Shown one piece after another: positions 9,274 through 38,824 of a DNA stretch of 64,000 bases (positions are counted from its first letter, which is position 1; each line of letters opens with the position of its first letter). The position numbers were made by a program, and so were the translations under genes. This stretch comes from Thermothelomyces thermophilus ATCC 42464 (lineage: Eukaryota; Ascomycota; Sordariomycetes; Sordariales; Chaetomiaceae). The stretch lies in contig NC_016472.1 in NCBI RefSeq assembly GCF_000226095.1, positions 1,116,001 to 1,180,000 on the forward strand. The letters are read 5' to 3'. The notes beneath the pieces were generated by a model. It was not told the origin of the DNA. It saw only the letters and a list, made by a program, of their open reading frames with translations, and did not search any database.

Positions 9274-9278
9274 GTATA
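9274..9278. repeat. Target-site duplication GTATA, right of A-el1
   Basis: Exact match to 1716-1720, directly outside the right LTR. Confidence 0.9.
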
Positions 9279-13656: not shown

Positions 13657-13990
13657 ATAGGTAGGTATTTAGGCTAGTTATATTAAGCAAAAGAAACTAT
13701 AGTCTATAAGATAATCTATACCTCTTAATCTATATATTCCATACCCCTATTTATCTATAGATAATAGGCTATTAATAGTAGCTATTCGATTCTAATAGTC
13801 TTATAAAAGGTAGTCTAAACCTAGCTAAGCTAGTCTGAACTATAATTAGTAATAATTTATATCGGAAATCCATAAAACTACTATTATATATTACTATAAC
13901 TTAGTAGCTATAATTAGTATAGCTTAGAAGGCTATAAAGGTATAATACTATAGCGGTATTTGTACTATAAGCGGCACTCCTAGACCAACT
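13657..13990 (-). pseudogene. Element E integrase core
   Basis: The - frame continues the integrase upstream of the chromodomain. It contains ITNYSSD (from TDRGS-type, second catalytic Asp altered), TTFYKTIRIE, LLLIAYYLQINRGME (from STAYHPQTDGxxE) and a Glu at the third catalytic position (DxEVQ). Homology fades near 13990. The H2C2 domain, RNase H and RT were not found. Confidence 0.65.
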
Positions 13991-14268
13991 ATTATAATCT
14001 ATAGAAGTAGGTAATAAAAGCGTTAATTATTCTAAATGCCAGAGGCACTTAGAAAAGCTATCTAAATATATATTAACCCTAGCTCGTTATCCCTATTAGT
14101 AGGTTAGTCAGATCTGACCTATAGACAGCCAAATACTATAACAGGTACTAGGGTTTGAAAGGAAAAATGACGACCTGTCATAACTTAGTAAATACATTAG
14201 TCTTTATCTATTGTAATAGTCCTTACAATCGTTCCTCTATCCTACGGTCGTATCTATCCGCTTATCCG
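13991..14268. other. Spacer between element E and gene X
   Basis: No reading frame is convincing. It holds the 3' flank of gene X and the broken upstream end of element E. The exact border was not found. Confidence 0.35.
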
Positions 14269-17059
14269 TCAGTCCTTCTTACTACCAGCCGGGCCTAGGT
14301 TGTCTAGGAATACGGATAATGCTAACGGGCGCTCTTGCTATAAGCGCGCGAGAGTCCTAGCCCTAGCCTAAGTGTCCCTAGCTAGGGTACGGTTGCCATA
14401 GAGCACGCTAGTGGCCCTCTTACGCGAGGGGCTCTCCTGTGCTAGTATTTCTGGCTATGGTCGTTTCTAGCTAGTGGTTGTAGGCGGCAGGTGTACGACC
14501 GGGCGGGCGATTAAGCTAGGAGGGGCACTAGCCCTTGTGGTGGCTAGCGGTAGCCGAGCTATAGGTAGCTACGTTCTAGGAGCCCTCTATAGTATAGTAG
14601 CTAATATAGTACGCTTACTAAGTTAGGCGACTATACCTTTAAGCTGCTGTAGCTTCTTATCTATACCCTTCTTCTAGTCGAGGGTAGCTATATAGTTATC
14701 ATTTATAGCTATTAAAGTCTCCTATAGCTGTTTAAGCTCTTTCTTGATCTGGTTAAGGGCCTTAGTAACGCTATTAGTAGCCTTATCCTGCCTTTAAACT
14801 ATAGTCTAAGCCAGCCTAAGAAGGTCGGCCTTAGTAGCTAGTTACTAGCGCTTAGCGAAGTCCTTGTTAGCCTTGTTATCTTTAGCTATACCTTAGGTAG
14901 TAACGACTTATATAGGTATGGGCTATATAACCTAGTGGCCGGGCAGGCTATAATATAGGTAGCTAAGCTTAAATAGGTAGTTATTAACTAGAACGTTACT
15001 ATCTCCCTTAGGTATATAGATATAAGCTATTAATAGTTCCTTAGGCTTAGGTATACTAGTAGGTATTATACTAGTAATATAGTACGTCTTATATATAGTC
15101 TCTAGTTTCTTCTTAAGGCTATATATAGCTAGGTTAGCCTTAAAAGAGTCATTGTTGGCCTTTTTATAGTAGCGGTAGATCTAATAGTAGGTATAGATAA
15201 GTATATCCTTATTACTACAACACTCCTAGCAGGTACAAGCAAGGCAATCCTTGACGGGCCTAATTAATATGCTCGTAGATAGGTATAGTAGGCCGGACTT
15301 GATAACCCTAATACTAATAAAGGGGTTGAACTCTATACCTATAAAGGTATTTTCTACCTCCTTAAGGCTATTAAAGACAATATAGGCATCGTTAAATCTA
15401 GCCTGTGATTCGGCCTCTTTATTATCATCAGGGTCCCTCTTACTCCTATAGATAAACCTACCGGTAGGTGCCTTACGCTAAGCATGCCCAGTTAGCGTGA
15501 CAGGCTAGGGTGTAAGCTTAGGCAGGTAGAGTGTTAGGTCTGGCTATAGCAAGGCCTAAGATGTCAGAGTGGTAGTAATAATGTCCATAGTTTTAGTAAC
15601 GACTAATATACCCTCGTTATTATAGTGCTTGGTGCCTTATTATATGGTTATAGGTAAGCTAGTAGGCATATATAGGTATATAGTTACGTCCTTGGTAGTA
15701 GCGTCGGTAGAGCCGGAGTCTTAGTAGTTCTACTCTAGTTAAGCTATATCTAATTTATAGGATAGGCGGTTAATAGGCTCGAGCGTTAGAATTGCCTAGT
15801 ATATAGTTAGGGGTGTTAGTAGCCTCTTCTTATTTATTATATCCTATACCTTAATAATAGCGAACTTGATTAATAATGATAGGGCTAGCCTATTATCTTA
15901 GTCTACTAGCTTATTAGGGCTATTAGCAGCTAGTTCTTTATATTTATATACCTTATATAGGTTAATTAGTACCTATCTAGTTATACTAACACATTAGCTA
16001 TATATAACTATATAGCTATCTTCTATTTTATATACTATATTGCTATTAATAGCATAAGGCTAGAATCCTCCCTATAAGTTTAAGGTCTTATAGTGCCTAG
16101 CAAAGAATAGCGCCAGTATAATATAGTAGATCTCGGCCTTAGTAGCCTTATATAGGTCAACCGTAACCATAGTGCTAGCGATAATGCTAAAGAGCACGGC
16201 CTTTATCTTGCTATCAACTCTAATAAAGGCAAATCTAGCCTCTAGGCAGGGGATCTTAGTAGTATTGTCCTTATCTATACTATAGAAGGTCTTATAGTTA
16301 GCTATAGTTATTTGCTCTCCCTAGGAATAGTAGCTATTGACAAAGTAATATATAGCTAAGAGGCAAACTACGTCATACTTGCTAACGCTAGTACAGACTA
16401 TATTAACGACATTATCTAGGACTTAGGCTATAATACCTATATTACTATTATAGCACTATTTGACGATAGCGTCGTCCGGCAATTATAGGTATAAGGGGCC
16501 AAAAGTGTTATATATGCCGGTTTAATCGTTAGTAATGGCTAGAGGAGGTATACGCTATAGGTTATTCTAGGACATAGTAAGGTCTTTGCCCTCGGAATTA
16601 AAGTATAAGGTTATATCCTTATAACGCACTTGGACTAGGCTACCTATTACTAGGTCATTCCGAACTTCCTCCTTGTTGCCTATGGCGATAGTAAAGCCTA
16701 TACCGCTCTTAAGGAAGGTATCTATATAGTTAAGGACCTCCTAGATGACCTTGTTATCTAGGCTATTGTTCTTACTTATAGGGCCTAAATATACGCCCTA
16801 TATAGGTATTAGTATAGGCTATACCTGGCTAGTTGCCCTAGTGCTTATAGCCGATAGTGCCCTTTGTAGATTAATAGGTATAAACGTAATAGTAGTAATG
16901 TCAGTTAACTCTACTACTACTGACTACGGTATAGGCATATCTTACTAGCTAGCTATAGGCTTATTTCCCTAGGCTAGGCTTGTAGCCGTAAGGCCTTTAG
17001 CGCTTTTAGCAGCCTATTTGTTACTCTTCCTAGCTCTGCTTCTAGACTTAGCTATTATA
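14269..17059 (-). pseudogene. Gene X: unrecognised ORF of 932 codons, split by A-el2
   Basis: One - frame stays in phase over the whole stretch and ends at TGA 14269-14271. Nearly all internal stops are TAG/TAA of the RIP type. The first codons lie across A-el2 at 24547-24551: the frame begins ACA-ATA-GCT, where ATA is ATG with a RIP-type G to A. The length would be 932 codons including stop. Order: a basic N-terminus (AKSRSRARKSNK); a mid part with hydrophobic and aromatic residues; near residue 607 a Cys cluster CLACTCxECC; at about 758-822 a Lys/Gln/Leu-rich part likely to be a coiled coil (ALNQIKKELK); and a Pro/Arg-rich tail with PSRKRA and the end GPAGSKKD. I recognise no domain. The spread of RIP says that it was repeated in the genome. 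It may be a mobile-element protein or a duplicated host gene. Confidence 0.65.
17055..17059. repeat. Target-site duplication TTATA, left of A-el2
   Basis: Exact match to 24542-24546. The insertion point falls just after the third codon of gene X. Confidence 0.9.
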
Positions 17060-17458
17060 TGTGACGAACCTAACTCAGACTTCTTCTAAAAGGGTTCAGA
17101 CGAAGGTAGATTAAGCGGAGCCAGCAAGCAGGTCGTCTAAGGGATTCGGTAAAGCCAAAGGGTTCACAACAACACTTCAGTTGTCTCCTTACAATGTTAG
17201 GGTACTGTGAGTTGTGATTGCTATCACTGGTAAACTCCCAGAGTTCACCAGAACGAGTGACTATATACAATTTCCTTATCCTTCCCCCTTGAGTCTTAAT
17301 CGTGTAATCGCTGCTGTGATCCTGCGATCGTTACCCAAGTGCTCGTCTTGGTCGAAGTGCGATCACTGCGATCACTTCCTAATTGGTCCTTAGGTCTTGT
17401 AGTTCCTAATTGGTTCTATGCGCCTTGCTGGGTCGCCTTATGCAGCCAAATCGTGACA
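17060..17458 (-). repeat. 3' LTR of A-el2
   Basis: This 399-bp LTR starts TGTGACGAAC on the + strand and ends CGTGACA. The tract CGATGCCCCTCCTTT follows on the + strand, which is the polypurine tract on the element strand. Confidence 0.95.
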
Positions 17459-17590
17459 CGATGCCCCTCCTTTAGGTCTTTTGTCCTTGAAAGACTCCGG
17501 TCCGTTTTAAATAGCGCTAATATCCCCTGTCTGTACGTAATTACGTTTCCCAGTTTCTTCCCTCCTTTGCCTTCCCACGATGTTATCGAG

Positions 17591-18229
17591 ATGGCTAATC
17601 GTATAAGAAAGAAGTCGAAATCTAAACCTGCTACATCGACTCTTTATACTAATTACCTTCTTACGGCAATTCTTTCTTCGGATAGCCTTTTAACGATACG
17701 TCCTTGCTCGCCATATAAGTCTAAAGGCCTCAGTTCATACGAGGTCTCGAAAGCCGATTCTTCTCGATACGCAGAGTACGTCCGCAACAAACGCTCGAAT
17801 TGTAACGTTCTTGGCGTCTCCCCTGCTTAGCTTCGGTCTATCGCGGCTTAGTATCAGAAACTTAAGGATGAACTTATAGCTGCTAAGGAGCAAGTCCTTC
17901 GTCTTTGGAAACAAAAACGCATATGGTTTAAGAAGATGATAAGGGCTATTGCTCGGGGTATTGACAGTGTGGAGGAGTTAGAGCGAGTGGAGCGTGAGGA
18001 GGCTGCGGCGGCGGCGGTAGCAGAGGCTTCTAGGGTTACTACGTCCTCTTCGACCCTATCTTGCCTGTCTGCCGATTTCGGATAGCTTTGGGATACCGTG
18101 TATCCTAAAGTTCCTTTGGATCTATCCTTGCTAGCCAATTTCGGGTTAGTCTCTAGTTCGTCGCTTTCGGTCGATCAGGGTTCCTCTGGTAGAACTGCTG
18201 AAGTTTCTTAGGGCAATTTAGGTTCTTGA
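17591..18229 (+). pseudogene. Antisense ORF of A-el2 (639 bp)
   Basis: This frame is opposite to the element, from ATG 17591 to TGA 18227-18229, 213 codons including stop. The first 80 codons are open; the break at 17828 is TAG from CAG. It starts MANRIRKKSKSKP, then RPCSPYKSKG, SSRYAEYVRNKRSNC, where A-el3 shows Cys at the Tyr positions, so a C-x2-C-x7-C group at residues 60-71 and a further C-x2-C at 39-42 are inferred. A likely helix (KLKDELIAAKEQVLRLWKQK), the motif RGIDSVEELERVE and a Ser-rich tail follow. A-el3 and A-el5 have the same frame at exactly the same length. It overlaps the pol end by 191 bp, tail to tail. A promoter would have to lie in the antisense LTR or leader. Function unknown; a Zn-binding role is inference. 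Confidence 0.7.
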
Positions 18230-21200
18230 TAGGTTCCTATAAGTTATCTTCTGGTCCAAAATCAAGCCATTTGACTAGATATTACAGTTCTCTGTTGACG
18301 ATACGTAAATCTAGAATTTCTTCGACGTCCTATTCTTCCTCTTCGTCCTCTGCTTCGATGTTTATAGCAATCTTAGCGTCCTTTGGCGCTGGTTCTAAGA
18401 GTGAAATATGAAAAACATCTGTCTGTAGTCGTATAGATGACGGTAACGATAGTCGATAGTTAGATGTTAAGATTCGCTCTTTGATAACGAATAGTCCTAA
18501 TTTTTTAAAGTCTAGCTTCTCGTTTAGTCGTTTGGTTCGTAGGTATCATGAGATTAGGTAAACTTTGTCTCCCCTCTCTAGGTAAGGTCCCTTAAGCCTA
18601 TGTTTGTCGTAGTAGTTCTTTATCCTTGTTTTGACGAACTCGAGTTCCTTCTTGAGCTTTTTATACAGTGCGTGCATTTGTTCTACTTTGACTACTGCTC
18701 TCGGCACTATGATCTCTGGTCCTTGTCTAAGGTCTGCTTTATATCTGTAGTTCGCGAAGAATGGTATGACCTTGGTCATTTCCGTTGGCGTCGTGTTATA
18801 AGCGAGTTATACTATTAGTAATAACATGACCTAGTCGTTTTACTAATAGTTAACGTAAGAACGGAGATACTGTTCGATGACTTGGTTTAGTTACTCCGTT
18901 TATCTGTCGGTCTGCAGGTAATATGCTGTTGATAGCTTACTATTAATGCCTAATCGTCGTATTAACGCTTGCTAGAACTTCGATACGAATTTGGTGTCTC
19001 TGTTGGTGATCTATTCTTGGGGCCAAGCATGCACTAATGTAACTTGCCAATAGATTACGTCTGCTAGCTATTTAGCTATCTAGGATTCCTTATAGGGGAA
19101 GAAGTATACCTATTTAGTTAGGCGATCTACTACAATAAGGATGCTATTATAGATCACTCCTATAGCTATATCTTTAGATTCTGGCAGCTTTGTAATAAAG
19201 TCTATTGTGACCGAGCTCTATGGTTTGTCAGGTGTTAGTAGTGGCTAAAGTAACCTATACGGCTTATGTCGTGCCGTTTTGCTTCGGTTGCAGATATCGC
19301 AGTTTCGTATAACTTCTTTAACTCGTGCCGTTAACTGTGGAAAGTCGTAGTGTTTCTTGACTTGTGCGATAGTTTTCGTGACTCCTTTGTATCCTCCGAG
19401 TTTCGATTCGTAGAGCTCTCGAATCATTCGCAGCTATTGATCTTTGTCGTGGATATACGCTTTGCCTCGGTACTAGAGTTTCCTATCTTTTTCTTCCACT
19501 CCGTCAGGTACTACTAGTCCAGGTGCTACTTGATACTATGTCTCGTTGATCCTTTCTTCTCGAAGGATTATATAACATTCTAGGAATGAGTCGAGTGGAT
19601 CATCTTCTACGGGTGTCTACGTTTCGTGATGTAGCGTTCCGTCTGTCCGTTCCTTGAATAACGGTGGTATTGTTTCTGTCCGTTCTTCTGTATGACCCGT
19701 TTGTCGGCTTAAGATGTCCGCTCGTACGTTTTCTTTGCCCTTCTTATAGCGGATCTCGAAGTTAAATTCCGCGAGGAATTCTACCTATCGTATTTGTCGT
19801 CCATTAAGCTCCTTCGTTATTATAAAGTATCGCAGGTTCTTATAATCTGTATATACTTATACTAGTTCAATTATACCGCTAAGGTATAGTTGCCATTCTT
19901 TAAAAGCTTTAACAATCGCAAGTAGTTCCTTATCATAGATCAGATAATTAAGACATGGTCTATCGAGCTTCTTTAAAAAGAAGGCTATAGGATGTAGCTT
20001 CCCTTGTTTGTCTCGTTATCCTAATTGTCCTCTAATAGCGTAGTCTAAAGCGTCCGTTTCCACCTCAAATGGCTTCTTGGGGTTTGGCAGCACTAGTACT
20101 AGATCTTTAGTAATGGCGTCGCGGATCTATGTAAATGCTTGCTCGTATTACTCTTCCTATTGGAATTTAGTGTTCTTCTTGGTAAGTTCGTATAAAGGTC
20201 GTACAATCGCTCTAAAGTTCCTAATAAACATCTAGTAGAAGTTCGTAAATCTAATGAAGCTTTGTACTTCCGTGACTATCATTAGTCGTAGCTAATTCTT
20301 GATGGCTTCAACCTTTGAAGGTTCTATCTGAATTTATCCTAGGGATATTTTGTACCCTAAAAACACCGTTTTCCTAACGTGGAATTCGCTCTTTTCCTTG
20401 TTAATTAATAGCTTGTACGCGTGTAGCGTGTCTAGCACTACTCTTACGTGCTTCTGGTGTTTGTCTATCATCTTAGAGAAGATGAGTATATCGTCAAGAT
20501 AATATACCGTAAATTTGTCGAGAAAGGGTCAGATAGCTTGATCAATCAGGGCTTGGAACGTTGCCGACGCGTTTGTAAGTCCGAATGGTATGACGAGGTA
20601 CTTGTAATAGCCATAGGGTGTCCTAAAGGCCGTTTTCCACTTGTCGCCTTCTTTGATCTATATATAGTTGTAGGCCGATAGTAAGTCAAGACGTGTAAAA
20701 TATTAGGCTCCTACTAACTAATCTCGGAGCCGTAAGATTAGCGGTAATAGGTATCGGTTTTTCATAGTCTGTTCGTTAAGTTACCGATAGTCGACGTATA
20801 ACCATAGCTTTCTATCTTTCTTAGGCACAAATAAGATTAGGTAGCTTGCTAGTAATGTCGACAGGTAGATATATCCTCTTCGAAGGTTCTCCTCCAAATA
20901 TCACTTAAGTTCTTCGTTCTATATCTAGCTCGTATAGTAAATCTTAAAGAACTTTAGTCATGCTCCTTCCTTAAGCTTGATCTCGTGATCCTATAGGCCG
21001 TGTTCTGGTAATTCTTCTAGATATTTCGGTTCGAATGCTAGGTGTCCTTTGTATTCCTTTAGTACTTCCCTAGTCTTGTCTTGTCTCTCGGTTTTCTGAT
21101 AGTATGCAAACTTGGTTCTGTCTATAGCGATACTGGCGATTTCTCCTGTCTTGACCTACTACTCTAATTATAGTGCTCTACATTCGTTAACAGAGAGAAT

Positions 21201-21872
21201 AGCTATCGACGGTTTAGCTCGTTCCTCCTATTATATCGTCGTTATCGTTTTACCGCTTCTTCTAGAGTCTATAGTGGTCTGTCTACCACTGTCTGTCTCT
21301 TGCGGTAGATCCGTAGGACATGCCTTCCCTTAAGCATCGTCCTCTCGCGATCCTTGCGCGCTTCCTATCTCGCTAGTCGAATACGACTCTATTTAGGGTC
21401 ATAGGTAGCTACCATTCTTCTAGCTAATGTCTAGGTCGTAATCTTCATACTATGGTAACCCTAATATCATGTCTTTGTCATCGCCTATATCTATAATACT
21501 AAATACAATTACTATAGTCTTCCCTACTATAGTAATGTCGATCGGTTTGGTCTCTCTACGTACTTATTATGTCGGAAATAGTCCTTTAACTATGCCATGC
21601 TTCCGCTTTATTCTCCAGGGTATCTGTAGCTAATTTATAAGCGTTAGCAAAATTAGGTTCATCTCTGCTCTACTGTCTACTAGTGTGAGCATTTCGTGCT
21701 GTTTCTATTATGCTGTTATCTATAGTCGCTTGTCCTACCGTCGTCGTCCAAAGATTGCGGCGACTTCCTATGTTTCTGCTAGGAGGTCTCGATATAGTAG
21801 TCTCTTACGGTAGTTCCTCCTGTACTACGCTACCACTCGCCGCTGTGCGGGCGTTAATGGTTTTCAGGCCCC
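18039..21872 (-). pseudogene. A-el2 pol
   Basis: Pol in the -1 frame relative to gag covers 1278 codons and ends TAG at 18039-18041 (TAGTAA). Protease is near 21.7 kb, RT/RNase H at about 19.7-20.9 kb and integrase at about 18.6-19.5 kb. The H2C2 part is open at 19245-19427 (GGYKGVTKTIAQVKKHYDF, then CDICNRSKTA). The integrase C-terminal part is open at 18546-18779 (GDKVYLIS). The chromodomain at about 18.2-18.4 kb ends KKLQQFYQRNP. The span is the same as in A-el3 and A-el5 to the base. Broken by RIP stops. Confidence 0.87.
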
Positions 21873-24115
21873 TCGAAGGGCCCTAACCTGTTTCCCAGGT
21901 TAGTGTTAACCTCTTTAGTCGTTTAGCTAATAGCGGCTTTGTCTATCGTGCTCATTTCTGTAAGCTATTGAGTACTTATAGCTTCCTACTATTAGGTCCG
22001 TTCTGCTTTCTATTGTACGTGCCATAGCTTCATCCGAAGCTCCCGAATTCGTAACTTCTTTTTGTCTATGTGGTAGAGGTAATCGTTACTTTAGCATAAG
22101 TCCTATATGTTTCGTCCTGTTCCGCAGTGCCTAGGCTAGGCTCGTTTTGGAACTATCGTAATGCTTTCTAGACTCCGGTCTTCAATCTTCTAGAGCAATT
22201 CGGCCGCTCTATTTCCTATATTATAGACCTATTCCACCAGGCGTAAGCTTCTGTCCTCATTTTCTTGTCGGGTTGGCCAGTGGTTGTTCTCGAATTTGTC
22301 ACGGAAGTGATATCGGCATTTGTATACCACATATTAGAACCAGGGCACTTGTGTATATGCCTCATGTCGAAGGTATAATCGTGTAGTGTCGCCTGGGAGG
22401 TATTGGAATTCTCTCCCAAATCCTTCCCACTGTACGTAGACTGTAGGTACTCTAATGCTAAGGTAGGGGTGTTTCTTCTAGTAGCTTTCCTATATACGCT
22501 CGTCTTTTCCGTGGTTCGCGCGCATAAACTAATATTCTAGGTTCCGTATATCGTTACTAAGTTGCTAATCGTCAAAGTACTCGGTATAGCTATCGGGTCT
22601 ATCATATACCATAAGCTGTTCTCCTTTGATAGTTTCTACGATACGTCGGAGTTCCCTCGTCTCGTCCCTCATCTCATTGCTCTACTAGGCAAGTTAAGTC
22701 AAACGTTTATCCTATTTACGTAGTTCCGTGTTAAGCCGGAAAACTTCGTTACGGTACTCTTCGATTTGTTCCTATAGGAATAGAACATTAGGTCTGGGTC
22801 TTTCGGTTCCTTAGGTGTTGGTCGTCTACGATCTATCCTGCCTCTATATAACTGTAAAACCCTACTACCCTAAGGCTAGGAGAATCGAAATTAGCAGTAC
22901 GTACTCTCCGGTTGTATCCCATTTAGCAGGACCTATCTCTAGGTTTATAGTAACCAGTTCGGAATACAGTACTTGTTCGTCTTTACCGTTGCCGTCGTGT
23001 CCAAAACTGTCCGTGTTACTGCCCTTGTCTTTATAGCTCGTAGCTACTACTTCGGTAACATTCTTAGTGGTTTCGTCGATATCCGTGATTTCTTTTCCAG
23101 GGACTAGCTTCCACTCTTTCTTCGGGCTTCGACATTCTCGCTTATAGTGCCCTTTCTTTCCGTAGTTATAGTAGGTAACATTAGACTTGTCTTTGGTCAT
23201 CTTCTTCCGGTCCTACTTCTACGCTACGTCTATATCTATAGCTCTAGGGTATATCCCATACGAAGTACTAACATACGTTTGCTTTTTCTTATTGTTAGCT
23301 TTGACTATGGTTCTATTTGTTTGACCTCGTTTCTACTACTCTTGTACGTAGAGCCGATTATCGATTCTAATGGCCTGTACGATATATTTGTCCAAAGTCT
23401 TAGGTCGATCGTACTTATATAGCTTGTCTTTAACCTTTTCCTTTAGGCCGTTATAGAATAATTGCATTAATGCCTTGTCGTTAAGCTAAGACTTAAACAT
23501 GTCCTGTCTAAACTATATAGCGTAGGAGGCTACTAACTTGGTCTATCAGAGATTAGCAAGTCTTTCTTACGTATGGATTTTCTCGTCTTTGTCGCTAAAA
23601 ACCTTCCGAAGCTCTTCTTTGAAACGATCGTAAGATCGGAAGACTACCTATATAAATACATCTCGGTCGTCTTCATCTTCCTCGGTGAGGTAGTCGTTCC
23701 ACGTAGGCTCAAACTATCTAAGTGCCTTGCCCTCTAGTCTCATGGCTACATAAAGGACTTTGGCTTTTTTGTCTAGAAACTTGTCGTTATTAAGCTAGAA
23801 GTAAGATCAGAGGTTTGTCAGGAATCCTATAAGATCCTCCTTAGTTCCTCTATATTTACTAGGTAGTTTGATCTTGATGCGGCTCGCTTTGACGGTCTCG
23901 AGTGTCTCGATTTTGGTATAAGCCTTGTTAATCAATTTCTGCAAGTACTTTTCGCCGTTCTCAAGTTCCTTGATTCGAGCTTGAGCAGCCTTGTCTCTCT
24001 GGTCTAACTCCTAGATCCGCTGCTAGAGTTGACTAAGCTAGGCAAGCAGTTGTTCGGCCGTGACGTCGGTAGCTATGTCGGTGTCAAGGTCGAAGTCACC
24101 TCTGTTCTAAACTAT
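21854..24115 (-). pseudogene. A-el2 gag, start codon lost
   Basis: The 2262-bp gag frame is in place, but its first codon is ATA (24113-24115) where A-el1 and A-el3 have ATG, a TpG to TpA change. The CCHC knuckle is in the open part 22865-23200 (YYNYGKKGHYKREC), with the first two Cys read as Tyr. It ends GPFEGPENH before TAA 21854-21856. The pol overlap is as in the other copies. Confidence 0.87.
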
Positions 24116-24142
24116 GATAGAACAAAGGGAGTAATAGCAACG

Positions 24143-24541
24143 TGTGACAAACCTAACTTAGACTTCTTCTAAAAGGGTTTAGACGAAGGTAGATTGAGCG
24201 GAGCTAGTAAGCAGGTTGTCTAAGGGATTCGGTGAAGCTAAAGGGTTTATAACAACACTTTAGTTGTCTCCTTACAATGTTAGGGTACTGTAAGTTGTGA
24301 TTGCTATCACTGGTAAACTCCTAGAGTTTACTAGAACGAGTGACTATATACAATTTCCTTGTCCTTCCCCCTTGAGTCTTGATCGTGCGATTGCTACTAC
24401 GATCCTGTGATCGTTACCTAAGTGCTCGTCTTAGTCGAAGTGCGATCACTACGATCACTTCCTGATTAGTCCTTAGGTCTTGTGGTTCCTGATTGGTTCT
24501 GTGCGCCTTACTGGGTCGCCTTATGCAGCCAAATCGTGACA
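24143..24541 (-). repeat. 5' LTR of A-el2
   Basis: This 399-bp LTR is equal in length to 17060-17458. The TSD TTATA follows at 24542. Confidence 0.95.
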
Positions 24542-24546
24542 TTATA
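24542..24546. repeat. Target-site duplication TTATA, right of A-el2
   Basis: Exact match to 17055-17059. Confidence 0.9.
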
Positions 24547-24551
24547 GCTAT
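24547..24551 (-). pseudogene. Gene X start region (ATA in place of ATG)
   Basis: On the - strand the frame reads ACA ATA GCT, then continues on the far side of A-el2 as ATA ATA GCT AAG. ACAATGGCT would be a good fungal start context, with A at -3. The ATA at 24549-24551 fits ATG changed by RIP. This is inference: no earlier in-frame ATG was looked for beyond about 150 bases upstream. Confidence 0.5.
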
Positions 24552-25149
24552 TGTTAGGTGGTTCTAGATTAACAAAACTTAGCCAAAATCGCTAAAACTT
24601 GGTAGTTTCTTATATATATAATAGAATAAGCAAAAGGGAGTAGGAAAACAAACTCTAAAGCCTCCTTTTAATGGAAATGGTGATATATAGGCTATGGGAG
24701 ATAGCTATATAATGGTAGGTTAATAGAAAGGGCTAGGTTAAAGGGTCTAGTAGTTAGAAAAGAAGGTAGTTATTAAAGAAGTTATAGAAGAAGTAGAAGA
24801 GGTTTAAAGAGGTAAAAAATAGTAGGAAAACTAGGGTTCTTATAATTTAGGGTAGGGCTTTAAAGATAGGATGAAAAGTGCCTAAATAAGAGGGGTGTTA
24901 GGCCCTATTAACCGGAATGGGTAGGCTATTTAGCCCTATTAATTAAATAAGTAGCTATTTAATAGGTTAGCCAAGCTAGGTATATAGTTTAAAGTAATGG
25001 TTAAAGCTTTATCTATAACGAGTAGTGGAATTAAAGCAAATATAGTAGGTAAAGGATAGGTTTAAGGGGAGTAGTAATAGGCTTTCTAGTGTTAAACCAG
25101 ATTCTAGGGTATCCTATTAAAGGTATACGCCCCTAGGCACTATTTAGCC
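24552..25149 (-). other. Upstream region of gene X / 3' flank of B-minus
   Basis: No ORF is seen. On the - strand the stretch is pyrimidine-rich at about 24.76-24.82 kb and has a TATATATA run at 24612-24621, about 65 bp before the gene X start, so it looks like a promoter region. The 3' LTR of B-minus would be expected here, but I could not define its ends. TGTTAGG at 24552 could be an LTR end, but no partner copy exists in the window. Confidence 0.35.
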
Positions 25150-28100
25150 TCTTCCTAGCTAGAAATGACGCCTTAGGCCTTCTATTTAGGTGGCCTGCCT
25201 TGCTTTTTTCTAGGTAGCAGTTAAATCTAGTAGCGATTCTCGTATTCCTAAATTAATTTGCTAGTAGTAGCTTCGAGTTTGCTTTTCGGAAGCTACTAGT
25301 CGTCCTTTGCGTTAAATCTAAGCTAACGGACAAGGTATTCTACCTTCGGGCGCTTCTTTCTACGTACTCGATAGTCGACGATCTTCTTAATCTTCTAGTA
25401 TTCCTTGCTATTAACTAGAATTGGCTATAGTAGAGGAGCGGTTCTTTTAAATAGATTAGGACCTTGTTTAATGTGGTAAAGCTAGGCAATAGATACGACT
25501 AGGTGGACTTTCTAGGATTTGGGAAAAGCTAACTTATATACTAGTTTTCCTACCCTCTGTTTGATCTTAAATGGTCTTGCCCTTTGGGCTAACCACTTCC
25601 TATTAGGTTTGCCAGGTAGGTAGTAGCCTTTGTATAGATATAGCTAGACGGTGTCTCTAACCTTGAATTTAGTAGGTATATATCTCTAGTTATACTATAA
25701 CTTAGCTATAGCTATGGCTTGGTTGATCATTTTACTAGCTTTGGCCTAGTAGTACTTATATAGGATTTCTAAAGCTTCCTATCTACTAGAGTTAGCGGTC
25801 CTCTTGCTAAGGATATCTAGGACTAAGTATAGCTTAAACCTATATACTAGCTCATTCGGTAACCTTCTAATACTAGTGACTAGGGTATTATTAAGGTAGT
25901 GCTATAGAGTAGGGAGGATCTTAACCTATAAGCGATCAGAATTGGCTATAAAGTTTATTCTAAGTACGATTTCCATAGTCTAGTTTGTCTGTTCGAACTA
26001 GCCGTCGGTCTATAGGTAGTAGGCTATAAAAAACAATAGCTTAGTTCCTAGTAGTAAGAATATTTCCTTCTATAGGTTAAATATAAACTTAGGGTTACGA
26101 TCGCTGATAATCTAGGTAGGTATACCCTAGTCAATGAATATCTAGGTCCTTAGAAGAACAGTTACCTATTCCTTGGCTATATATATCCGGCAGCCTGCTA
26201 TAAGTAGCTTCTTCTTACTAAACTTATATATTACGGTATAGAGTATATCTGCTAGTATATAGCCTTCGAGTGATTAGAGGGTCCTAACGGTTGGTACCGG
26301 CGGCAAGTCGGTAATAAAGTCTATAGCTACTATATAGTATAGTGTCGACTAGGTCCGAATTAGCTAGAGTTCCCCTGGTAGTAGGTTCCGGTTGGTCGAG
26401 TTTGCCTAGTATACCTTATAATACCATACGAACTTTGAGACTTTCTAAGCCTTCTTATAAAAATAGATAGCTATAAGCTCGTTTATCATCTTGTTTTTAC
26501 CGAAATAGTATATATCATTATAAATAATCTAAAGGATTAGGTTAATATAGCTTTCCGGTAGGTAGAGTCTCCTAGTACTATCAAAGTCGATATGGAAAAG
26601 TGGCCTATTTGTTAATTTGAACGGTCTTATAGGCAGTTTTGGCTATCTACATTTCCTAACCCCGTTCTAGTCATTTCTAACCAGGTCCTTCTCGCTTTTA
26701 TAGAGTATATAATGGATAGGTCTATACTTACGGTCCTTAGGATAGCTAGTAATGATCCTAGCCCTAAAGTTATCACTAAGCACTGGTTCTATAATAGTTA
26801 TATCTATTATAAAGATATCCTTATCCTAGTGCTTAATCTAGATATCTCTAAGTTTGTTAACCGGATTATCCTTAACCTTTAGATCCTCTTATTCCTATAT
26901 AGGTAGTCTTGATAATGTATTAGGTACGACATTTAAGGTTCCTAAGATATGGAAGATATTAAGGTTAAATCCGGATAGGTAATTAGTAGTATTAGCTAGC
27001 TTAAGGTTAGCCTTAGCTAGATCTATTGTAATTAGGGACGTATACTTTATAATCCCTTTTATAGGAGTATAGTTAATAAGGACATTGATTAGATGCCTAT
27101 TCGATTAGACTATCTTTCTAAGCTTTCTAATTACCTAGACAAGTATAGTGATCTCTACCTTAATAAATCTATAGCATTTTTTAATATTAGTAGTCGCTTA
27201 TAATATAAATAGGATAGGCTATACCTTACTTATAGGAATATCCTTACTAGGAATTTTCTCTCCATCCTAGTCACCCTTAAGTTAGAAGGTAATAACGTTA
27301 TAGCCGTTACGGTAGGCATCTAACTTTAGGAATAGTAGCTTTTCTAAGCGGTAGTAATAGAGGAACTCCTAGTTATATAGGTACTCCCATAATAGTCGGA
27401 ATAACTTAAGTTCTTTCCTAGTTAGAGTAAATTTAACAGTAGATATAACCGCTTTCTAGGTATATTTAGCTTTCCTAAGGTTTAATTTTCCTTCCTTCTA
27501 GGCTGCTACCATTAGTGCTGTCTTCCGGGCTTAGAGTGGCCTTGCTTTGGTATTAAACTATAGAATGTCTTTCCTAAGCTATCTAGCCATCCTAAGGTAG
27601 TGCTCTAAGCTATCGAGAGTATCTAGGAACTTTAGCTTCTTAAAGGTAGCGATACGGTCGTTAGTTTTAGTAATGCCTTTACTATTTATAATATACCTAA
27701 GGAGTCTCATAGCTAGGTATCCTATGAAGGATTTAGTGATACTAATATGGATATAGGCCTTATTAAGGATTTCGTAAATGGTATATAGGTATTCTAGGTA
27801 TTCCTCTTCTACTTTGCTAAAGATAATAATATTGTCGATATATACCCTGATAAAATAGTAGTGTTTAAGGAAAAGTCTATCTATATAGTATTATATAAAT
27901 ATAGGTACGTTTTTAAAACCTATAAGTACTATATTAGATTTCTCTAGGCTATAGTAGCTTATAACTACTATATAGTTACTATATTCCTTAGTAACTAGTA
28001 ACTAGTGAAAGAATCCTAAAGTATCTAGGGCTATAAAGAACTTATTACTAACTATAGTAGCTATAATGTCGTCCTAGTCAGGTAAGGGGTAAACATCTAG

Positions 28101-29027
28101 AACTATAATTACGTTTAATAGTTATAGGTCGATTATACTTTAGCTCTTCTTAACTTCTACTCCTAGCTTCTTAGTAATCTTCCTCTATATAATAAATACT
28201 AGGTATATAATAGGGGTTAGTTTATCTATAAAAGTGAATCTGCCGGATGCCTAGAGCTAGTTATAATACTTATCTAGAGCCTTATAGTCTTTAAGCCCTA
28301 TTAGGTATAGTCTAACTATATAGACTTGCTTTTACTAACCATTAACCAGGTTAATCTATATCTTCTAGTTTTCTAGCATTAGTACGATTCCCCTATCATA
28401 GTAAAGGTTATATCTATCTAGAAGTTCCTTTACCTCAAGCGTAAACTCGGGATTTACGTTAGCAATGCTAACACTATTCTTGCTTTTAATAGCTAGTATA
28501 TCGTTAGGTTTCTTAATGCCGTAAGATAGGATATAAAAGTTAACTCTGTTCAGTAGCTAAAGATCCTAGCTATTGTCGCTAGTATCTTCTTAGTAATATG
28601 CTTACTAGGTCCCTTCTAGCTTTTCCTTTAGCTCCTATTTAGTAATTCCTTCCTAGACCTTGGTCTATATATCCTCTATATCGCTTGCCTTAACCTAGGC
28701 AGTAGTGTCCTCCCTATAGTATTCTAAGAGGTAGCTAATCTTATCTCCTTTCCAGATAACTATAGGGACATTGGTATTATTTCTAACGATAGCTACTAGG
28801 GGTATACGCCGATTAACTATAGTATCCTAGACTCCGTCTTGGCTAGTAGTAAAGTAAAAGCACTTACCCTCTAGGACATTGTTAGGTAATAGTATAAAGT
28901 AAGTCTCAACTATCTAGGTAGAGTATATAAGAATAATAATATATTAGATAGTAGTAACCTTCTAAGAGATAGGTTTAGGGTTCTTCTTTATAACGTCCCT
29001 ATAGACCTTTATATTTGCTAGCAATCT
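25150..29027 (-). pseudogene. B-minus: pol with chromodomain (chromovirus family B)
   Basis: From right to left on the - strand: the start of protease, RT at about 27.6-28.5 kb (VYIDNIIIF in the YxDD position), RNase H at about 26.9-27.3 kb, integrase at about 25.4-26.6 kb (GIPTxIISDR), then a chromodomain at about 25.2-25.43 kb (IVDYRVRRKK, VEYLVR, LPKSKLEATTSKLI). The tail LLPRKKxGRPPK is an AT-hook-like motif. A-el3 cuts the frame at 29027, in the protease end. The sequence matches B-plus in the opposite direction, and the chromodomain is present only here. RIP stops are throughout. Confidence 0.75.
29023..29027. repeat. Target-site duplication AATCT, left of A-el3
   Basis: It pairs with GATCT at 36555-36559; the single G/A difference is a transition. 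The B-plus copy shows the uninterrupted target. Confidence 0.8.
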
Positions 29028-29449
29028 TGTCACGATTTAGCTACATAAGGCGACCCGGCAAGGCGCATAGGACCAATCAGGAACCACAAGACCTAAGGAC
29101 TAATCAGGAAGTAATCACAGTGATCGCACTTCGATCAAGATGAGCACTTGGGTAACGATCGCAGGATCGTAGCAGCGATCGCACGATCAAGACTTAAGGA
29201 GGAAGGACAGGGAATTGTATATAGTCACTCGTTCCACCAGACTCTGGCAAACTCTAGGAGTTTACCAATGGTAACAATCATAATCACAGTACTCATACTA
29301 AGCATTGCTAATTACTATAAGAGATAACTCTAAGTGTTGTTATAAACCCTTTAGCTTTACCGAATCCCTTAGACGACCTGCCTACCTGTCTTGCTTAATC
29401 TACCTTTGTCTAAACCCTTTTAGAAGAAGTCTAAGCTAGGTTCATTACA
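29028..29449 (+). repeat. 5' LTR of A-el3
   Basis: It starts TGTCACGATTTAG and ends GTTCATTACA, 422 bp. The internal part begins CGTTATTACTACTCCC, again with no TGG at the border. Confidence 0.95.
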
Positions 29450-29476
29450 CGTTATTACTACTCCCTTTGTTTTATT

Positions 29477-31738
29477 ATGGTTTGGAATAGAGGTGACCTT
29501 GACCTTGATATCGACATGGCTATTAACGTTACAGCCGAATAGCTGCTTACCTAGATCGGTTAACTCTAGTAGCGAATTTAAGAGTTAGACTAGAGAGATA
29601 AGGTTACTTAAGCCTAAATTAAGGAACTCGAGAACGGCGAAAAGTATTTGTAGAAACTAGTTAACGAGGCCTATGCCAAAATCGAAGTACTCGAGACTAC
29701 TAAAGCGAGCCGCATCAAGATCAAACTACCTAGCAAATACAGAGGAACCAAGGAAGATCTCGTAGGATTCCTAACAAACCTCCGATCCTACTTCCGGCTT
29801 AATAACAATAAGTTTCCAGATAACAAAGCCAAAGTTCTCTATATAGCCACGAGATTAGAGGGCAAGGCACTTAGATAGTTTAAGCCTACGTAGAACGACT
29901 ATCTTACTAAGGAAGACGAAGATGACCAAGACGCGTTTATACAGGTAGTCTTCTAATCTTACGACCGTTTCGAAGAAGAGCTTCGGAAGGTTTTTAGTGA
30001 CAAAGACGAGAAGATTTATACGCAAGAAAGACTTGCCAATCTCCAACAGACCAAGTCAGTAGCCTCCTATACTATATAGTTTAGACAGGACATATTCAAG
30101 TCTTAGCTTAATAACGAGGCGTTGATATAACTATTCTATAATAGCTTGAAGGAAAAGGTCAAAGACAAGCTATATAAGTATGATCGGCCTAAGACCCTAG
30201 ACGAATACATTATATAGGCTATTAGAATCGATAATCGACTCTATATACAAGAGTAGCAGAAACGAGGACAAATGAATGGAACCATAGTTAAGGCTAACGA
30301 CAAGAAAAAGCGAGTGTACGTCAGTACCTCGTACAGGACGTACCCCAGAGCTATAGATGTAGACGTAGCATAGAAGCAGGATAAGAAGAAGACGGCCAAA
30401 GACAAGTCTAACGTTACCTACTATAATTATAGAAAGAAAGGACACTACAAACGAGAATATCGAAGCCTAAAGAAAGACTAGAAACTAGTCCCTAGAAAAG
30501 AAATTGCAGATATCGACGAAACCACTAAGAACGTCACCGAAGTAGCAGCCACGAGCTACAAAGATAAGGATAGTAATATAGATAGTTTCGGACATAACGG
30601 CAATAGAGAAGATAGACAAGTACTATACTCCGAACTAGTTACTATAAACCTAGAGACAGGTCTCGCTGAATAGGACACGGTAGGAGAGTACGTACTACTA
30701 ATTTCGACTCTCCTAGCCTTAAGATAGTAGGGTTTTACGATCACGTAGAGGCAGGATAGATCGTAGACAACCGACACCTAAGGAACCAAAAGACCCGGAC
30801 CTAATGTTCTATTCCTCTAGGAACGAATCGAAGGGTACCGTAACGAAGTTTTCTAGCTTAATACGGAATTGTACGAACGGGATGAACGTTTGACTTAACT
30901 TGCCTAGTAAAGCGATAAGATAAGGGACGAAACGAGGGAACTCTAACGTATTATAGAAACTATTAAAGGAAAATAGCTTATAGTATATAATAGACCCGAT
31001 AGCTACACCGAGTACCTTGACAATTAGCAACTTAGTAACGACGTATAGAACCTAGAATACTAGTTTATGCGTGCAAACCGCGGAAAAGACAAGCATACGT
31101 AGGAAAGCTATTAGAAGAAACACTCCTACCTTAGCATTAGAGTACCTATAGTCTATATATAGTGGGAAGGATTTGGGAGAGAATTCCAATACCTCCTAGG
31201 CAACGCTATGCAACTGCACCCTCGATATAAAGCATATGCATAAGTACCCTAGTTCTAGTGTATGGCATACGAATGCTAATATTACTTCTACGACAAATTC
31301 AAAAACAATCACTAGCCAACCTGACAAGGAAATGAGGACGGGAGCTTATACCTTGTAGAGTAGGTCTACGATGTAGGAAGCAGAGCAGCCGAATTGCTCT
31401 GGAAGATTGAAGACCGGAGTCTAGAAGGCATCACAATAGTTCCAAAACGGGCCTAGCCTAGGTACTATGGAATAAAACAAGACATATAAGACTTATGCTA
31501 GAGCAATAATTGCCTCTACCACGTGGACGAAAAGAAGTTATAAATTCGGGAGCTTTAGATAAAGCTATAGCACGTACGACGGAAAGCAGAACGGACCTAA
31601 TGGTAGGAAGCTATAAGCACCTAATAGCTTATAGAAATAAGCACGATAGACAAAGCCGCTATTAGCCGAACGACTAAAGAGGTTAGCACTAACCTAGGAA
31701 ACGGGTCAGGGCCCTTCGAGGGGCCCAAAAACCATTAA
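29477..31738 (+). pseudogene. A-el3 gag
   Basis: ATG 29477 to TAA 31736-31738, 754 codons, frame fully in phase. The capsid part has LRSYFRLNNNKFPDNKAK; the knuckle at about 30.41-30.47 kb reads YYNYRKKGHYKREY, with Cys changed to Tyr; the C-terminus is GPFEGPKNH. The start codon is kept here. The 18 bases before the stop overlap pol in the -1 frame. Confidence 0.87.
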
Positions 31739-34700
31739 CGACCGCATAGCGACGAGTAGTAGCATAATATAGGAGGAACTACCGCAAGAGACCACTATAT
31801 CGAGACCTCCTAGCAGAAATATAGGAAATCGCCGCAATCTTTAGATGACGACGGCATAACAAGCGACTATAGATAACAGCACAATGGGAACAGCACAAAA
31901 TGCTTACACTAGTAGATAGTAGAGCAGAGATGAACCTGATTTTACCGACGCTTGTAAACTAGCTACAGATACCCTAGAGAATGAAGTAGAAGCATGGCAT
32001 AGTCAAAGGACTATTTCTAACGTAATAGGTATATAAGGAGACCGAACCGATCGATATCACTATAGTAGGGAAGACTATAGTAGTTATATTTAGTATCGTG
32101 GATATAGGCGACGACAAAGACATAATACTAGGGTTACCATGGTATAAAGATTATAACTTAGATATTAGCTAGAAGAATGATAGCTACCTACGACCCTAAA
32201 CGGAGTCATATTCGACTAGTAAGATAGGGAGCGTACAAGGATCACGAGAGGACGATGCTCGAGGAAAGGCATATCCTACGGATTTACTACAAGAGACAAA
32301 CAATAGTAGGCAGACCATTACGGACTCTAGAAGAAGCGGTATAACGACACTAACGTTATAATAGGAGGAACGAGCTAAACCGCCGATAGCTATTCTCTCT
32401 ATTGACAAATGTAGAGCACTGTAACTAGAGTAGTAGGTCGAGATAGGAGAAATCGCTAGCATCGCCATAGACAGAACCAAGTTCGCATACTATTAGAAAG
32501 CCGAGAGACAAGATAAGACTAGGGAAGTACTAAAGGAATACGAAGGACACCTAGCATTCGAACCGAAGTATCTAGAAGGATTACTAGAACACGGCCTATA
32601 GGATCACGAGATCAAGCTTAAGGAAGGAGTATGACTAAAGTTCTTTAAGATTTACTATATAAGCCAGACGTAGAACGAAGAACTTAAGCGATATTTAGAG
32701 GAAAACCTTCGAAGAGGATATATCTGCCTGTCGATATCGCTAGCAGGCTACCTAATCCTATTTATGCCAAAGAAAGATGGAAAGCTACGGTTATATGTCG
32801 ACTATTGGCAACTTAACGAATAGACCGTGAAAAACCGATACCTATTACCGCTAATCTCACGGCTCTAAGATTAGTTAGCAAGAGCCCAATATTTTACGCG
32901 TCTTGACTTGCTATCGGCCTATAACTATATATAGATCAAAGAAGGCAACAAGTGGAAAACGGCCTTTAGGACACCTTATAGCCACTATAAGTACCTCGTT
33001 ATGCCATTTAGACTTATAAATATGCTAGCAACGTTCTAAGCCCTAATTGATTAAGCTATCTAACCCTTTCTCGACAAATTTACGGTATATTATCTCGACG
33101 ATATACTTATCTTCTCTAAGACGATAGACAAACACTAGAAACACGTAAGAGAAGTACTAGACGCACTATATGCGTATAAGCTATCAGTTAATAAGGAAAA
33201 GAGCGAATTCCATGTTAGGAAAACGGTGTTTTTAGGGTATAAAATATCCCTAGGACAAATCCGGATAGAACCTTCAAAGGTTAAAGCTATCAAGAATTGG
33301 CCACAACCAACGATAGTCACGGAAGTACGAAGCTTTATTGGATTTGCAAACTTCTACCGAATATTTATCAGGAACTTTAGAGCGATCGTACGACCTTTGT
33401 ACGAACTTACTAAGAAGAATACTAAATTCCAATAGGAAGGACAACATAAGCAAGCATTTATATAGATCTGCGACACCATTACTAAAGACCTAGTACTGGT
33501 ACTACCAGACCCTAAGAGGCCATTCGAGGTAGAAACGGACGCTTCAGACTACGCCATCGGAGGACAATTAAGACAACGAGACGGACAAGGAAAGCTATAT
33601 CCTATAGCCCTCTTTTTAAAGAAGCTCGACAGACCATATCTTAATTATCCGATCCACGACAAGGAACTACTTACAATTGTCGAAGCTTTCAAGGAATAGC
33701 AACTATACCTTAGTAGCACGATTAAACTAGTGTAAGTATATACGGATTACAAGAATTTACGATACTTTATAATAACAAAGGAACTTAATAGATGACAAAT
33801 ACAATAGGTAGAATTCCTTGCAGAATTTAACTTCGAGATCTGCTATAAGAAGGGCAAAGAAAACGTACAAGCAGATATCTTAAGCCGACAAACAGATCAT
33901 ACAAAAGGACGAACGGAAACAACACTACCATTATTCAAGGAACGAGCAGACGGAACGCTACATTACGAAACGTAGACACCTATAAAAGATGATCTACTCG
34001 ACTTATTCCTAGAATGTTACGCAATCTTTCGAGAAGAAAGGATTAACAAGATATAGTATCAAGTAACACCCGGACCACCGGTACCTGACAAAGTGGAAGA
34101 AAAAGATGGGAAACTCTAGTACCAAGGCAAAGTATATATCCACGACAAAGACCAATAGCTACAAATGATTCGAAAGCTCCACGAGTCAAAGCTCGGAGGA
34201 CACAAAGGAGTTACAAAGACTGTCGTACAAGTCAAGAAACACTACGACTTTCTATAGCTAACGATACAAGTCAAGGAAGTCGTATAGAACTACGACATCT
34301 GCAATCGAAGCAAAACGGCACGATATAAGCCGTATAGACTACTTTAGGCACTACTAATAGCTAACAAACTATAGAGTTTAGTTATAATAGACTTCATTAT
34401 AAAGCTACTAGAATCTAAGGACACGGCTATAGGGGTAATCTACAATAGTATTCTCACTATAGTAGACCGCCTAACTAAATAGGCATACTTCTTTCCCTAT
34501 AAGGAGTCCTAGATAGCAGAACAGTTAGCAGACGTAATCTATTGGCAAGTTACATTAGTGCACGCTTGGCCGCGAGAATGGATCACCGATAGAGACACCA
34601 AATTCACATCGAAATTCTAGCAAGCATTAATGCAACGATTAGGCGTTAATAGCAAACTGTCAACGGCATATTACCTACAGACCGACGGATAAATGGAGCG

Positions 34701-35553
34701 ACTAAACCAAATCGTCAAATAGTATCTCCGTTCTTACGTTAACTACTAACAAGATGACTAGGTCATACTATTGCCAATAGTATAGCTCGCTTATAACACG
34801 ACGCTAACAGAAACGACCAAGGTTATACCATTCTTCGCGAACTATAGATATAAAGCAGACCTTAGATAAGGGCCAGAGATCATAGTGCCGAGAGCAGTAG
34901 TCAAAGTAGAACAAATATATATACTATATGAAAAGCTTAAAAAGGAACTCGAGTTTGTCAAAACGAGGATGAAGAACTACTACGATAAACATAGGCTCGA
35001 GGGACCTTGCCTAGAGAGGGGAGACAAAGTTTACCTAATCTTACGACACCTATAAACCAAACGACCAAGCAAGAAGCTAGATTTCAAAAAATTAGGACCA
35101 TTTATTATTAAAGAGCGAATCTCGACATCTAACTATCAACTATCGTTACTATTATCTATATGACTACAGACAGACGTTTTTTATATTTTACTCTTAGAGC
35201 TAGCGCCGAAGAACGCTAAAGTCGTCACAAATATCGAAGCAGAAGACGAAGAGGAAGAATAGGACGTCGAAGAAATCTTGGATTCACGAGTTATTAACGG
35301 AGAACTACAATATCTAGTTAAATAGCTTAATTTTAGACTAGAAGATAACTCATAGGAGCCTATTAAAAACCTAAATTACCCTAAGAAACTTTAGCAGTTC
35401 TACTAAAGGAACCCTAATTAACTAAAAGCAATAGACTAGAAACCAACCCGAAATCGGCCAGCAAGAATAGATCTAAAGGAACTTCAAGATACATAGTATC
35501 CCAAAGCTGCCCAAAATCGGCAGACAAACAAGATAGGGTCGAAGAAGACGTAG
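31720..35553 (+). pseudogene. A-el3 pol
   Basis: 1278 codons in the -1 frame. The retropepsin site reads LVDSRAEMNLI at about 31.91 kb (DSG with Gly to Arg). RT holds [12 protein letters not shown] and YYLDDILIFSKT at about 33.09 kb. The RT connection is open at 33226-33435. RNase H has ETDASDYAIGGQL at about 33.53 kb. The integrase H2C2 part is at about 34.14-34.33 kb (CNRSKTA), with catalytic parts at 34.39, 34.58 (ITDRDTKF) and 34.7 kb. The chromodomain is at about 35.25-35.41 kb (DVEEILDSRV, LQYLVK). It ends TAGTAA at 35551. The YLDD motif is intact, but stops are many. Confidence 0.88.
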
Positions 35554-36001
35554 TAACCCTAGAAGTTTCTACTGCCGCTGCTGCCTTAGCCTCCTCACGC
35601 TCCACTCGTTCTAACTCCTCTACACTGTCAATACCCCGAGCAATAGCCCTTATTATCTTCTTAAACCATATCCGCTTTTGTTTCTAAAGACGAAGGACTC
35701 GCTCCTCAGCAGCTATAAGTTTATCCTTAAGTTTCTAATGCTAAGCCGCGATAGAACAAAGCTAAGCAGGGGAAACACCAAGAACGTCACAATTTGAGCG
35801 TTTGTTATAGACGCACTCTATGCATCGAGAAGAGTCGGCTTTCGAGACCTTATATGAACTGAGGCCTTTAGACTTATACGGCGAACAAGGATATATCGTT
35901 AAAAGGCTATCTAAAGAAAGAATCGCTATAAGAAGGTAATTAGCACGAAGAGTCGATATAGCAGGTTTAGATTTTGACTTCTTTCTTATATAATTAGCTA
36001 T
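35363..36001 (-). pseudogene. Antisense ORF of A-el3, Cys motif kept
   Basis: Opposite to the element, 639 bp as in A-el2 and A-el5. The start codon is ATA (35999-36001) in place of ATG. This copy keeps SSRCIECVYNKRSNCD, that is C-x2-C-x7-C, which shows that the Tyr residues at these sites in A-el2 and A-el5 come from Cys. The C-terminal part 35414-35605 is open (RVTTSSSTLSCLSADFG). It overlaps the pol end by 191 bp. It may be a Zn-binding protein, but no partner or target can be read. Confidence 0.7.
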
Positions 36002-36132
36002 CTTGACAATATCGTAGAAGGTAAAGGAAAGAAGAAACTAGGAAACGTAATTATATATAGACAGGGGATATTAGCGCTATTTAAAATAGACCAGAGTCTT
36101 TCGAAGACGAAAGACCTAAAAGAGGGGCATCG

Positions 36133-36554
36133 TATCACGATTTGGCTATATAAGGCGACCCGGCAAGGCACATAGGACCAATCAGGAACCACAAGACCTA
36201 AGGACTAATTAGGAAGTAATCGCAGTGATCGTACTTCGATCAAGATAAGCACTTAGGTAACGATCGCAGGATCATAGTAACGATCGCACGATCAAGACTC
36301 AAGGAAGAAGGACAGGGAATTGTATATAGTCACTCGTTCCACCAGACTCTAGCGAACTCTAGGAGTTCACTAGTGGTAACAATCACAATCACAGTACTTA
36401 TACCAAGTATTGCTAATTACTATAAGAGACAACTCTAAGTGTTGTTGTAAACCCTTTAGCTTTATCGAATCCCTTAGACGACCTGCCTGCCTGTCCCGCT
36501 TAATCTACCTTCGTCTGAACCCTTTTAGAAGAAGTCTAAGCTGGGTTCGTTATA
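36133..36554 (+). repeat. 3' LTR of A-el3
   Basis: 422 bp, starting TATCACGATTTGG (TGTCAC with one RIP change) and ending GTTCGTTATA. The polypurine tract AGAGGGGCATCG lies at 36121-36132. Confidence 0.95.
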
Positions 36555-36559
36555 GATCT
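36555..36559. repeat. Target-site duplication GATCT, right of A-el3
   Basis: Pairs with AATCT at 29023-29027; it differs by one transition. Confidence 0.8.
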
Positions 36560-38580: not shown

Positions 38581-38824
38581 TTAAATCTATAATCTCGTTA
38601 CTAATTACAAGCATTTGAATACCATAGGAGACCATTTACCTAGGCAAGCGACTATATCCCTTTGCTTAAGCAGACATTTAAACAGTCAGATACAATAGTA
38701 ATAGTAACTTTATCAAGACCTAATGAACAAGCCTAAACTATGATAAGCGCGTTAGACTTACCGCTTCGTCATTAGAAATGCCTACCAGCATTAGGTTTAG
38801 AGGCTTACTCTAACAGAACTTTAA
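38581..38824. other. Junction between the two B copies
   Basis: Here B-minus (reading left) and B-plus (reading right) meet head to head. No LTR, TSD or polypurine tract is seen. The 240 bases match neither B copy elsewhere in the window, and may be 5' leader of B-plus. Confidence 0.45.

Follow-up and report, generated by a model that had tools for sequence, protein, structure and literature searches.

A RIP-mutated gene of Thermothelomyces thermophilus is probably the accessory ORF3 of a multi-copy Ty3/gypsy chromodomain LTR retrotransposon

Gene X is located on the minus strand of a 64,000-nucleotide stretch of the Thermothelomyces thermophilus ATCC 42464 genome (contig NC_016472.1, positions 1,116,001 to 1,180,000), which is called the window in the following. 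We consider gene X to be the accessory ORF3 of a multi-copy Ty3/gypsy chromodomain LTR retrotransposon, with a probability of roughly 0.85. As judged by sequence comparison, residues ~431-928 of its product belong to a previously undescribed protein family, which is new to the libraries searched.

The reading frame of gene X

The gene X frame is real. On the minus strand of the window it runs from 17058 to a last codon at 14269, comprising 929 codons with 50 internal stops (35 TAG and 15 TAA, no other type). The start is the second codon of this frame (17055-17053), which reads ATA in the window and Met in four of ten copies and in locus L012, so that the gene X protein has 928 aa. An earlier note on this DNA, made from the sequence alone, had described a single minus-strand frame of 931 residues with RIP-type stops; the frame and its stop types stand, while the length had to be corrected.

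For frame comparison, ten full-length copies were picked as indel-free. The gene X frame has the lowest stop count of the six frames in all ten of them, by a narrow margin in two. In the window, there are 51 stops (terminal stop included) compared to 60-155 in the other frames. The equivalent values are 49 compared to 50-141 for L010 and 50 compared to 53-149 for E19, a complete element copy. Dinucleotide shuffles that are equally poor in stops were never obtained for the N-terminal half (0 of 500 in each of three copies) and in 0, 1 and 4 of 500 cases for the C-terminal half. Within the N-terminal half taken by itself, one of the reverse frames has an equal or almost equal number of stops (24 vs 22 in the window, 18 vs 18 in L010, 21 vs 19 in L016).

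Frame phase, a comparison that the earlier note had proposed, is retained between copies: when 20 fetched loci and the window were analysed, 15 loci match gene X in a single frame over at least 817 codons, and the phase is also kept against the intact relatives of the C-terminal half. Two loci (L012 and L028), both outside the ten indel-free copies, have a frame shift, and L023-L027 are gene X pieces or copies split by insertions. Transversions within the N-terminal half of the ten copies are distributed over codon positions 1/2/3 as 11/7/18. This excess at the third position (18 of 36) is a weak hint of coding and suggestive only. Together with frame continuity and stop depletion (with one reverse frame as open), it suggests that the N-terminal half may be coding.

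Mutation by RIP

The RIP indices of gene X are past the cut-offs given in PMC7882544 (TpA/ApT >1.15, (CpA+TpG)/(ApC+GpT) <=0.75) in all ten copies, with TpA/ApT at 2.0-2.2 and (CpA+TpG)/(ApC+GpT) at 0.33-0.52. This bears out the claim that gene X has been silenced by RIP. The same source counts T. thermophilus among the high-RIP fungi. The ten copies differ in 1,127 of 2,787 columns, 1,066 of which show transitions alone and 61 some transversion. If each transition column is taken as a C-to-T change on one strand or the other, 509 of them precede A, and merely four fixed C's are found before A.

Half of the window's 50 internal stops (25) are represented by CAA, CAG, TGG or CGA in other copies, 22 are stops in all ten copies, and three correspond to other sense codons. 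For 23 of 28 stops in the C-terminal half, one or more of the intact relatives have Q, W or R at the position. When compared to the un-RIPped relative L031 alone, Q, W or R occurs at 16 of 21 aligned stops vs 11% of 397 other columns. Among the matches listed, 47 of 49 gene X pieces contain at least four stops, the other two being parts of the C-terminal half with one stop each.

RIP has also altered the apparent character of the protein. Net charge is +33 to +45 in the RIPped copies but -3 to +10 in the intact relatives as whole proteins. The latter are thus near neutral, and the basic nature ascribed to gene X in the earlier note applies to the RIPped copies and is partly an effect of RIP. 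A CxxCxC..CC cluster that had been listed as a feature proved to be a RIP artefact. RIP converts Arg codons to Cys, and three of the five Cys in the C-terminal half of the window copy are Arg in L031, so that the cluster is not ancestral. Two of the five Cys of L031 are kept in the window copy, and relatives read DCLARARWECRGN at the site of the cluster. A zinc-finger or zinc-cluster protein was rejected as a candidate, as there is no conserved Cys cluster. Others should be aware that a cysteine cluster in RIP-mutated DNA can be false, having originated from Arg-to-Cys changes.

Copies in the genome and the carrier element

We searched the genome (38,744,216 bases on seven contigs) and found DNA-level matches to gene X at a minimum of 40 places, with 81-88% identity (the best 40 of 45 candidates). 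At the protein level, at least 49 pieces (the best 49 of 57 candidates) could be grouped into 31 loci, and gene X is multi-copy, as the earlier note had deduced. A single-copy host gene was rejected: among the matches listed, no intact, unrepeated full-length copy was found in the genome.

It is highly probable that gene X is carried by a Ty3/gypsy chromodomain LTR retrotransposon, in which it represents the third gene (ORF3). Carriage by a mobile element had been suggested before and is supported by LTRs and target duplications, although the type of carrier had been missed. Two complete element copies of 10.7 kb, E19 and E15, were read (Table 1), and terminal repeats, which had been proposed as something to look for, flank both. 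Elements are arranged in the order 5' LTR, gag-like/protease-like frame, RT-RNase H-chromodomain frame, spacer, gene X, and 3' LTR. The pol frame is thus upstream of gene X, on the same strand. Among the pol-frame domains, the chromodomain is the only one to pass its curated Pfam cut-off (PF00385, E 7.2e-8, 32.7 bits vs a cut-off of 25.1; residues 880-932, downstream of RT and RNase H). In the one RIP-damaged copy analysed, RVT_1 (E 2.9e-6) and RT_RNaseH_2 (E 4.3e-5) are under their curated cut-offs, and SH3_Tf2-1 was detected in the pol frame at E 0.01. Integrase core, protease and gag families gave no Pfam match in the RIP-damaged frames of the element. By eye, a gag-like frame and a stretch resembling a protease were recognized farther upstream of pol.

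In eight loci, 576-606 bp are found between the aligned pol end and the gene X start. In the window, the gene X end is 125 bp away from the 3' LTR. Loci were paired with a pol list that contained the best 40 of 576 candidates, 34 of them being family members. A same-strand family pol was found within 25 kb upstream of 23 of the 31 gene X loci, at 15 and 23 kb in two cases. The remaining eight loci, which include both un-RIPped relatives, have no listed pol upstream. Six of the 40 pol matches are from other RIPped pol families (G000 C1:5030697-5033450 and five alike, with 35-36% protein identity).

The inner ends of the LTRs were inspected in E19 and E15 (L029, L030, L019, L015), L010, L014, and L022. 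A stretch beginning with TGG follows the 5' LTR, to which no primer tRNA was matched, and no purine run was seen directly before the 3' LTR. Directly adjoining the inner end of the 5' LTR of E15 there is a stretch resembling a primer site (TGGTGCC...GGTTCGAATC). In L010, the opposite strand has a comparable stretch (TTCGAACCCCGGCACC) directly ahead of the 3' LTR, at the usual place of the purine tract.

Arrangement in the window

The element copy with gene X is on the minus strand and is distributed over three pieces (36555-38576, 24542-29027, and 13892-17059). Gene X is separated from its own pol by A-el2, which is flanked by the target duplication TTATA at 17055-17059 and 24542-24546. The duplication and the start codon overlap by a single base, the last of the former and the first of the latter, which places A-el2 4 bp 5' of gene X and leaves the ORF whole. 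Gene X is thus not split by a retrotransposon, and A-el2 is not positioned just after codon 3, both of which had been claimed. Two copies of the gene X element meet head to head at ~38577, neither having a 5' LTR there.

Table 1. Features of the window and of two complete element copies. Positions refer to the window except for E19 and E15, which have their own numbering.
Feature	Position	Strand	Remarks
Gene X (ORF3)	14269..17055	-	928 codons + stop, RIP-mutated; start-codon equivalent 17055-17053 = ATA
C-terminal half of gene X, ~residues 431-928	14269..15765	-	homologous to P0001-P0004, L031
N-terminal half of gene X, ~residues 1-430	15766..17055	-	no relative found outside element family
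3' LTR of the gene X element	13892..14143	-	250 aligned bases, 214 identical to E19 3' LTR
A-el2, nested LTR element	17060..24541		398 aligned terminal bases, 364 identical
Pol part, same copy as gene X	24542..29027	-	= E19 9009-13488
Second nested element, ~7.5 kb	29028..36554		duplication AATCT/GATCT
Upstream part, same copy as gene X	36555..38576	-	= E19 7007-9013
Second copy of gene X element family	38579..44909	+	E19 6234-12544; without 3' part with gene X
E19 (L029+L019)	5965-16648		LTRs ~250 bp, 92.4% alike; target duplication GTAGA
E15 (L030+L015)	LTRs ~6134-6389 and 16540-16795		LTRs ~250 bp, 86.7% alike; target duplication AATCC

Relatives of the C-terminal half

Two un-RIPped relatives of gene X occur in the T. 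thermophilus genome and both are broken or truncated. L031 (C3:3164413-3165909, ~62% GC, one stop) corresponds to ~residues 431-928. The gene X sequence in L031 begins at codon ~432 immediately next to a piece of the 5' LTR and is followed by a piece of the 3' LTR; these two pieces agree at 145 of 155 positions (93.5%). With LTR pieces at both sides, L031 represents a shortened element. A Dynamin_N frame (E 2.9e-11), at L031 1775-3070, adjoins this un-RIPped remnant. The other relative, L032 (C3:2991911-2992621), is a truncated counterpart of the annotated protein P0003 (88% over 249 residues).

A search with L031 retrieved four intact annotated proteins (P0001-P0004) among 7,990 candidates. 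These are hypothetical proteins from T. hinnuleus (VTG60DRAFT_1026, VTG60DRAFT_4661) and T. myriococcoides (VTH82DRAFT_3049, VTH82DRAFT_3808). The earlier note had suggested searching for intact paralogues. Intact relatives exist in sister species for the C-terminal half, but no intact full-length copy was found among the matches listed for the genome itself. A profile search, with a profile that contained three wrongly framed rows, added P0005, a more distant metagenome protein of 246 aa. Except for this protein, no relative of the C-terminal half was found beyond the genus Thermothelomyces. The N-terminal half had no relative outside the element family.

It is possible, though less probable than an accessory gene of the element, that gene X is a host gene which has been captured (transduced) by the retrotransposon, its source being the low-copy Thermothelomyces family. 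Capture would fit the location of the L032/P0003-type relatives, where no convincing LTR match was seen in 8 kb (best local LTR scores of 28 and 39 in the L032 surroundings compared to 192 and 233 for L031, obtained without shuffle control), the presence of P0001-P0004 on one contig each, and the existence of a more distant relative, P0005. Capture of ORF3s by retroelements has been described in bdelloids (PMC5408684). However, L031, which is closest to P0001 (78%), is LTR-flanked and thus element-derived, both un-RIPped relatives in T. thermophilus are damaged, and only a single metagenome protein was found as a relative beyond the genus.

Transversions between L031 and element copies fall on codon positions 1/2/3 in 13/16/42 (E19) and 13/16/43 (L010) cases. 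This bias (chi-square ~21.5, 2 df) is what selection at the protein level would produce and implies that the C-terminal half was selected as a protein in the past. Domestication, with element-derived copies serving the host in T. hinnuleus and T. myriococcoides, might be read from the sequences on account of this bias and of four intact proteins (390-463 aa, without the N-terminal half) in two species. We consider it rather unlikely, as both non-repeated relatives in T. thermophilus are damaged and the selection signal may stem from the time inside the element.

Tentatively, the family as a whole may lead a double life, being carried as the extra gene in a fungal chromovirus and occurring in sister species as intact, free-standing genes of low copy number. 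It would then be either a RIP-escaped accessory gene being adopted by hosts, or a stolen host family that was extended by the 430-residue N-terminal half.

Predicted architecture and possible role

In the intact relatives, a shared core is accompanied by a coiled coil and by a tail rich in Pro. The AlphaFold2 model of P0003 has helices at 124-203 (pLDDT 76-87) and a helix at 211-225 (63-67), which are followed by two long helices. The prediction for the C-terminal half is a helical core plus coiled coil, with a tail that is Pro-rich and for the most part basic. The tails of P0001-P0004 contain more K+R than D+E (19/7, 18/10, 18/14, and 28/9). Both the coiled coil and the Pro/Arg-rich tail noticed earlier thus have their equivalents in intact proteins.

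The view that gene X is none of the usual gag or pol types holds, as it matches no known transposon family in Pfam. When 15 RIPped copies were searched at E<=1, the exception was DUF5344 (0.17 in one copy), and all Pfam matches of P0001-P0005 are below cut-off. PHROGs, which has no curated cut-offs, gave a best E of 0.005, over the coiled coil, when three of the five relatives were scanned. Solved structures gave no match at E<=0.001 for the relatives of the C-terminal half, the helical core being searched as part of larger models.

An envelope role is improbable. In retrovirus-like elements, env is located between pol and the 3' LTR, which is also the position of gene X, and hydropathy windows in the N-terminal half of ten RIPped copies reach 1.47-2.01. 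However, RIP raises hydrophobicity (e.g. Ala to Val, Thr to Ile), and these RIP-altered values are unreliable. P0001-P0005 have maxima of 0.53-0.98 over 19 residues, none strongly hydrophobic, and hydropathy revealed no signal peptide or transmembrane segment in the intact relatives of the C-terminal half, the N-terminal half being too RIP-changed for this analysis. We consider it very unlikely that gene X is envelope-like.

As an accessory ORF3, gene X would be expressed apart from gag-pol in an active element, which is suggested by the spacer and its own ATG. The product may be a soluble protein that oligomerises through the coiled coil, and its tail might contact nucleic acid. Nucleic-acid binding is a putative function and rather doubtful; with intact relatives near neutral overall, it is the tail that argues for it. 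Rather than being an envelope, ORF3 may support the life cycle of the element by helping with packaging, with regulation or with escape from silencing. The repeated copies were later damaged by RIP, and the copy in the window received A-el2 and the second element as insertions.

Comparison with known systems

Extra ORFs after pol are an already known kind in several retroelement groups. Fungal chromoviruses as described in PMC2864245 have LTRs and a pol with RT, RNase H and chromodomain, as does the gene X element. Some of the fungal Gypsy elements covered there have additional ORFs of unknown function, marked as 'add. ORF' in a figure legend. By description, these resemble gene X, and kinship is possible.

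Bdelloid LTR retrotransposons also have a third, family-specific ORF beside gag and pol, which is env-like or codes for a GDSL esterase or DEDDy exonuclease (PMC5408684). Gene X and its relatives have no Pfam match to these ORF3 families as named in that source. The plant element Retand has a long coding region after pol for a protein of unknown function, which has been argued to bind DNA (PMC11963269). This is similar to gene X, but Retand does not belong to the chromoviruses and its ORFs, between pol and the 3' LTR, run antisense, whereas gene X is in sense orientation.

The hypothetical proteins from T. hinnuleus and T. myriococcoides are homologous to gene X over much of ~431-928. Unlike gene X, they are intact and lack the N-terminal half. 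Extra post-pol genes appear in the fungal survey (PMC2864245) merely as additional ORFs of unknown function. For gene X, a gene of this sort, kinship with a family that has intact members makes it possible to study fold and activity without the dead copies.
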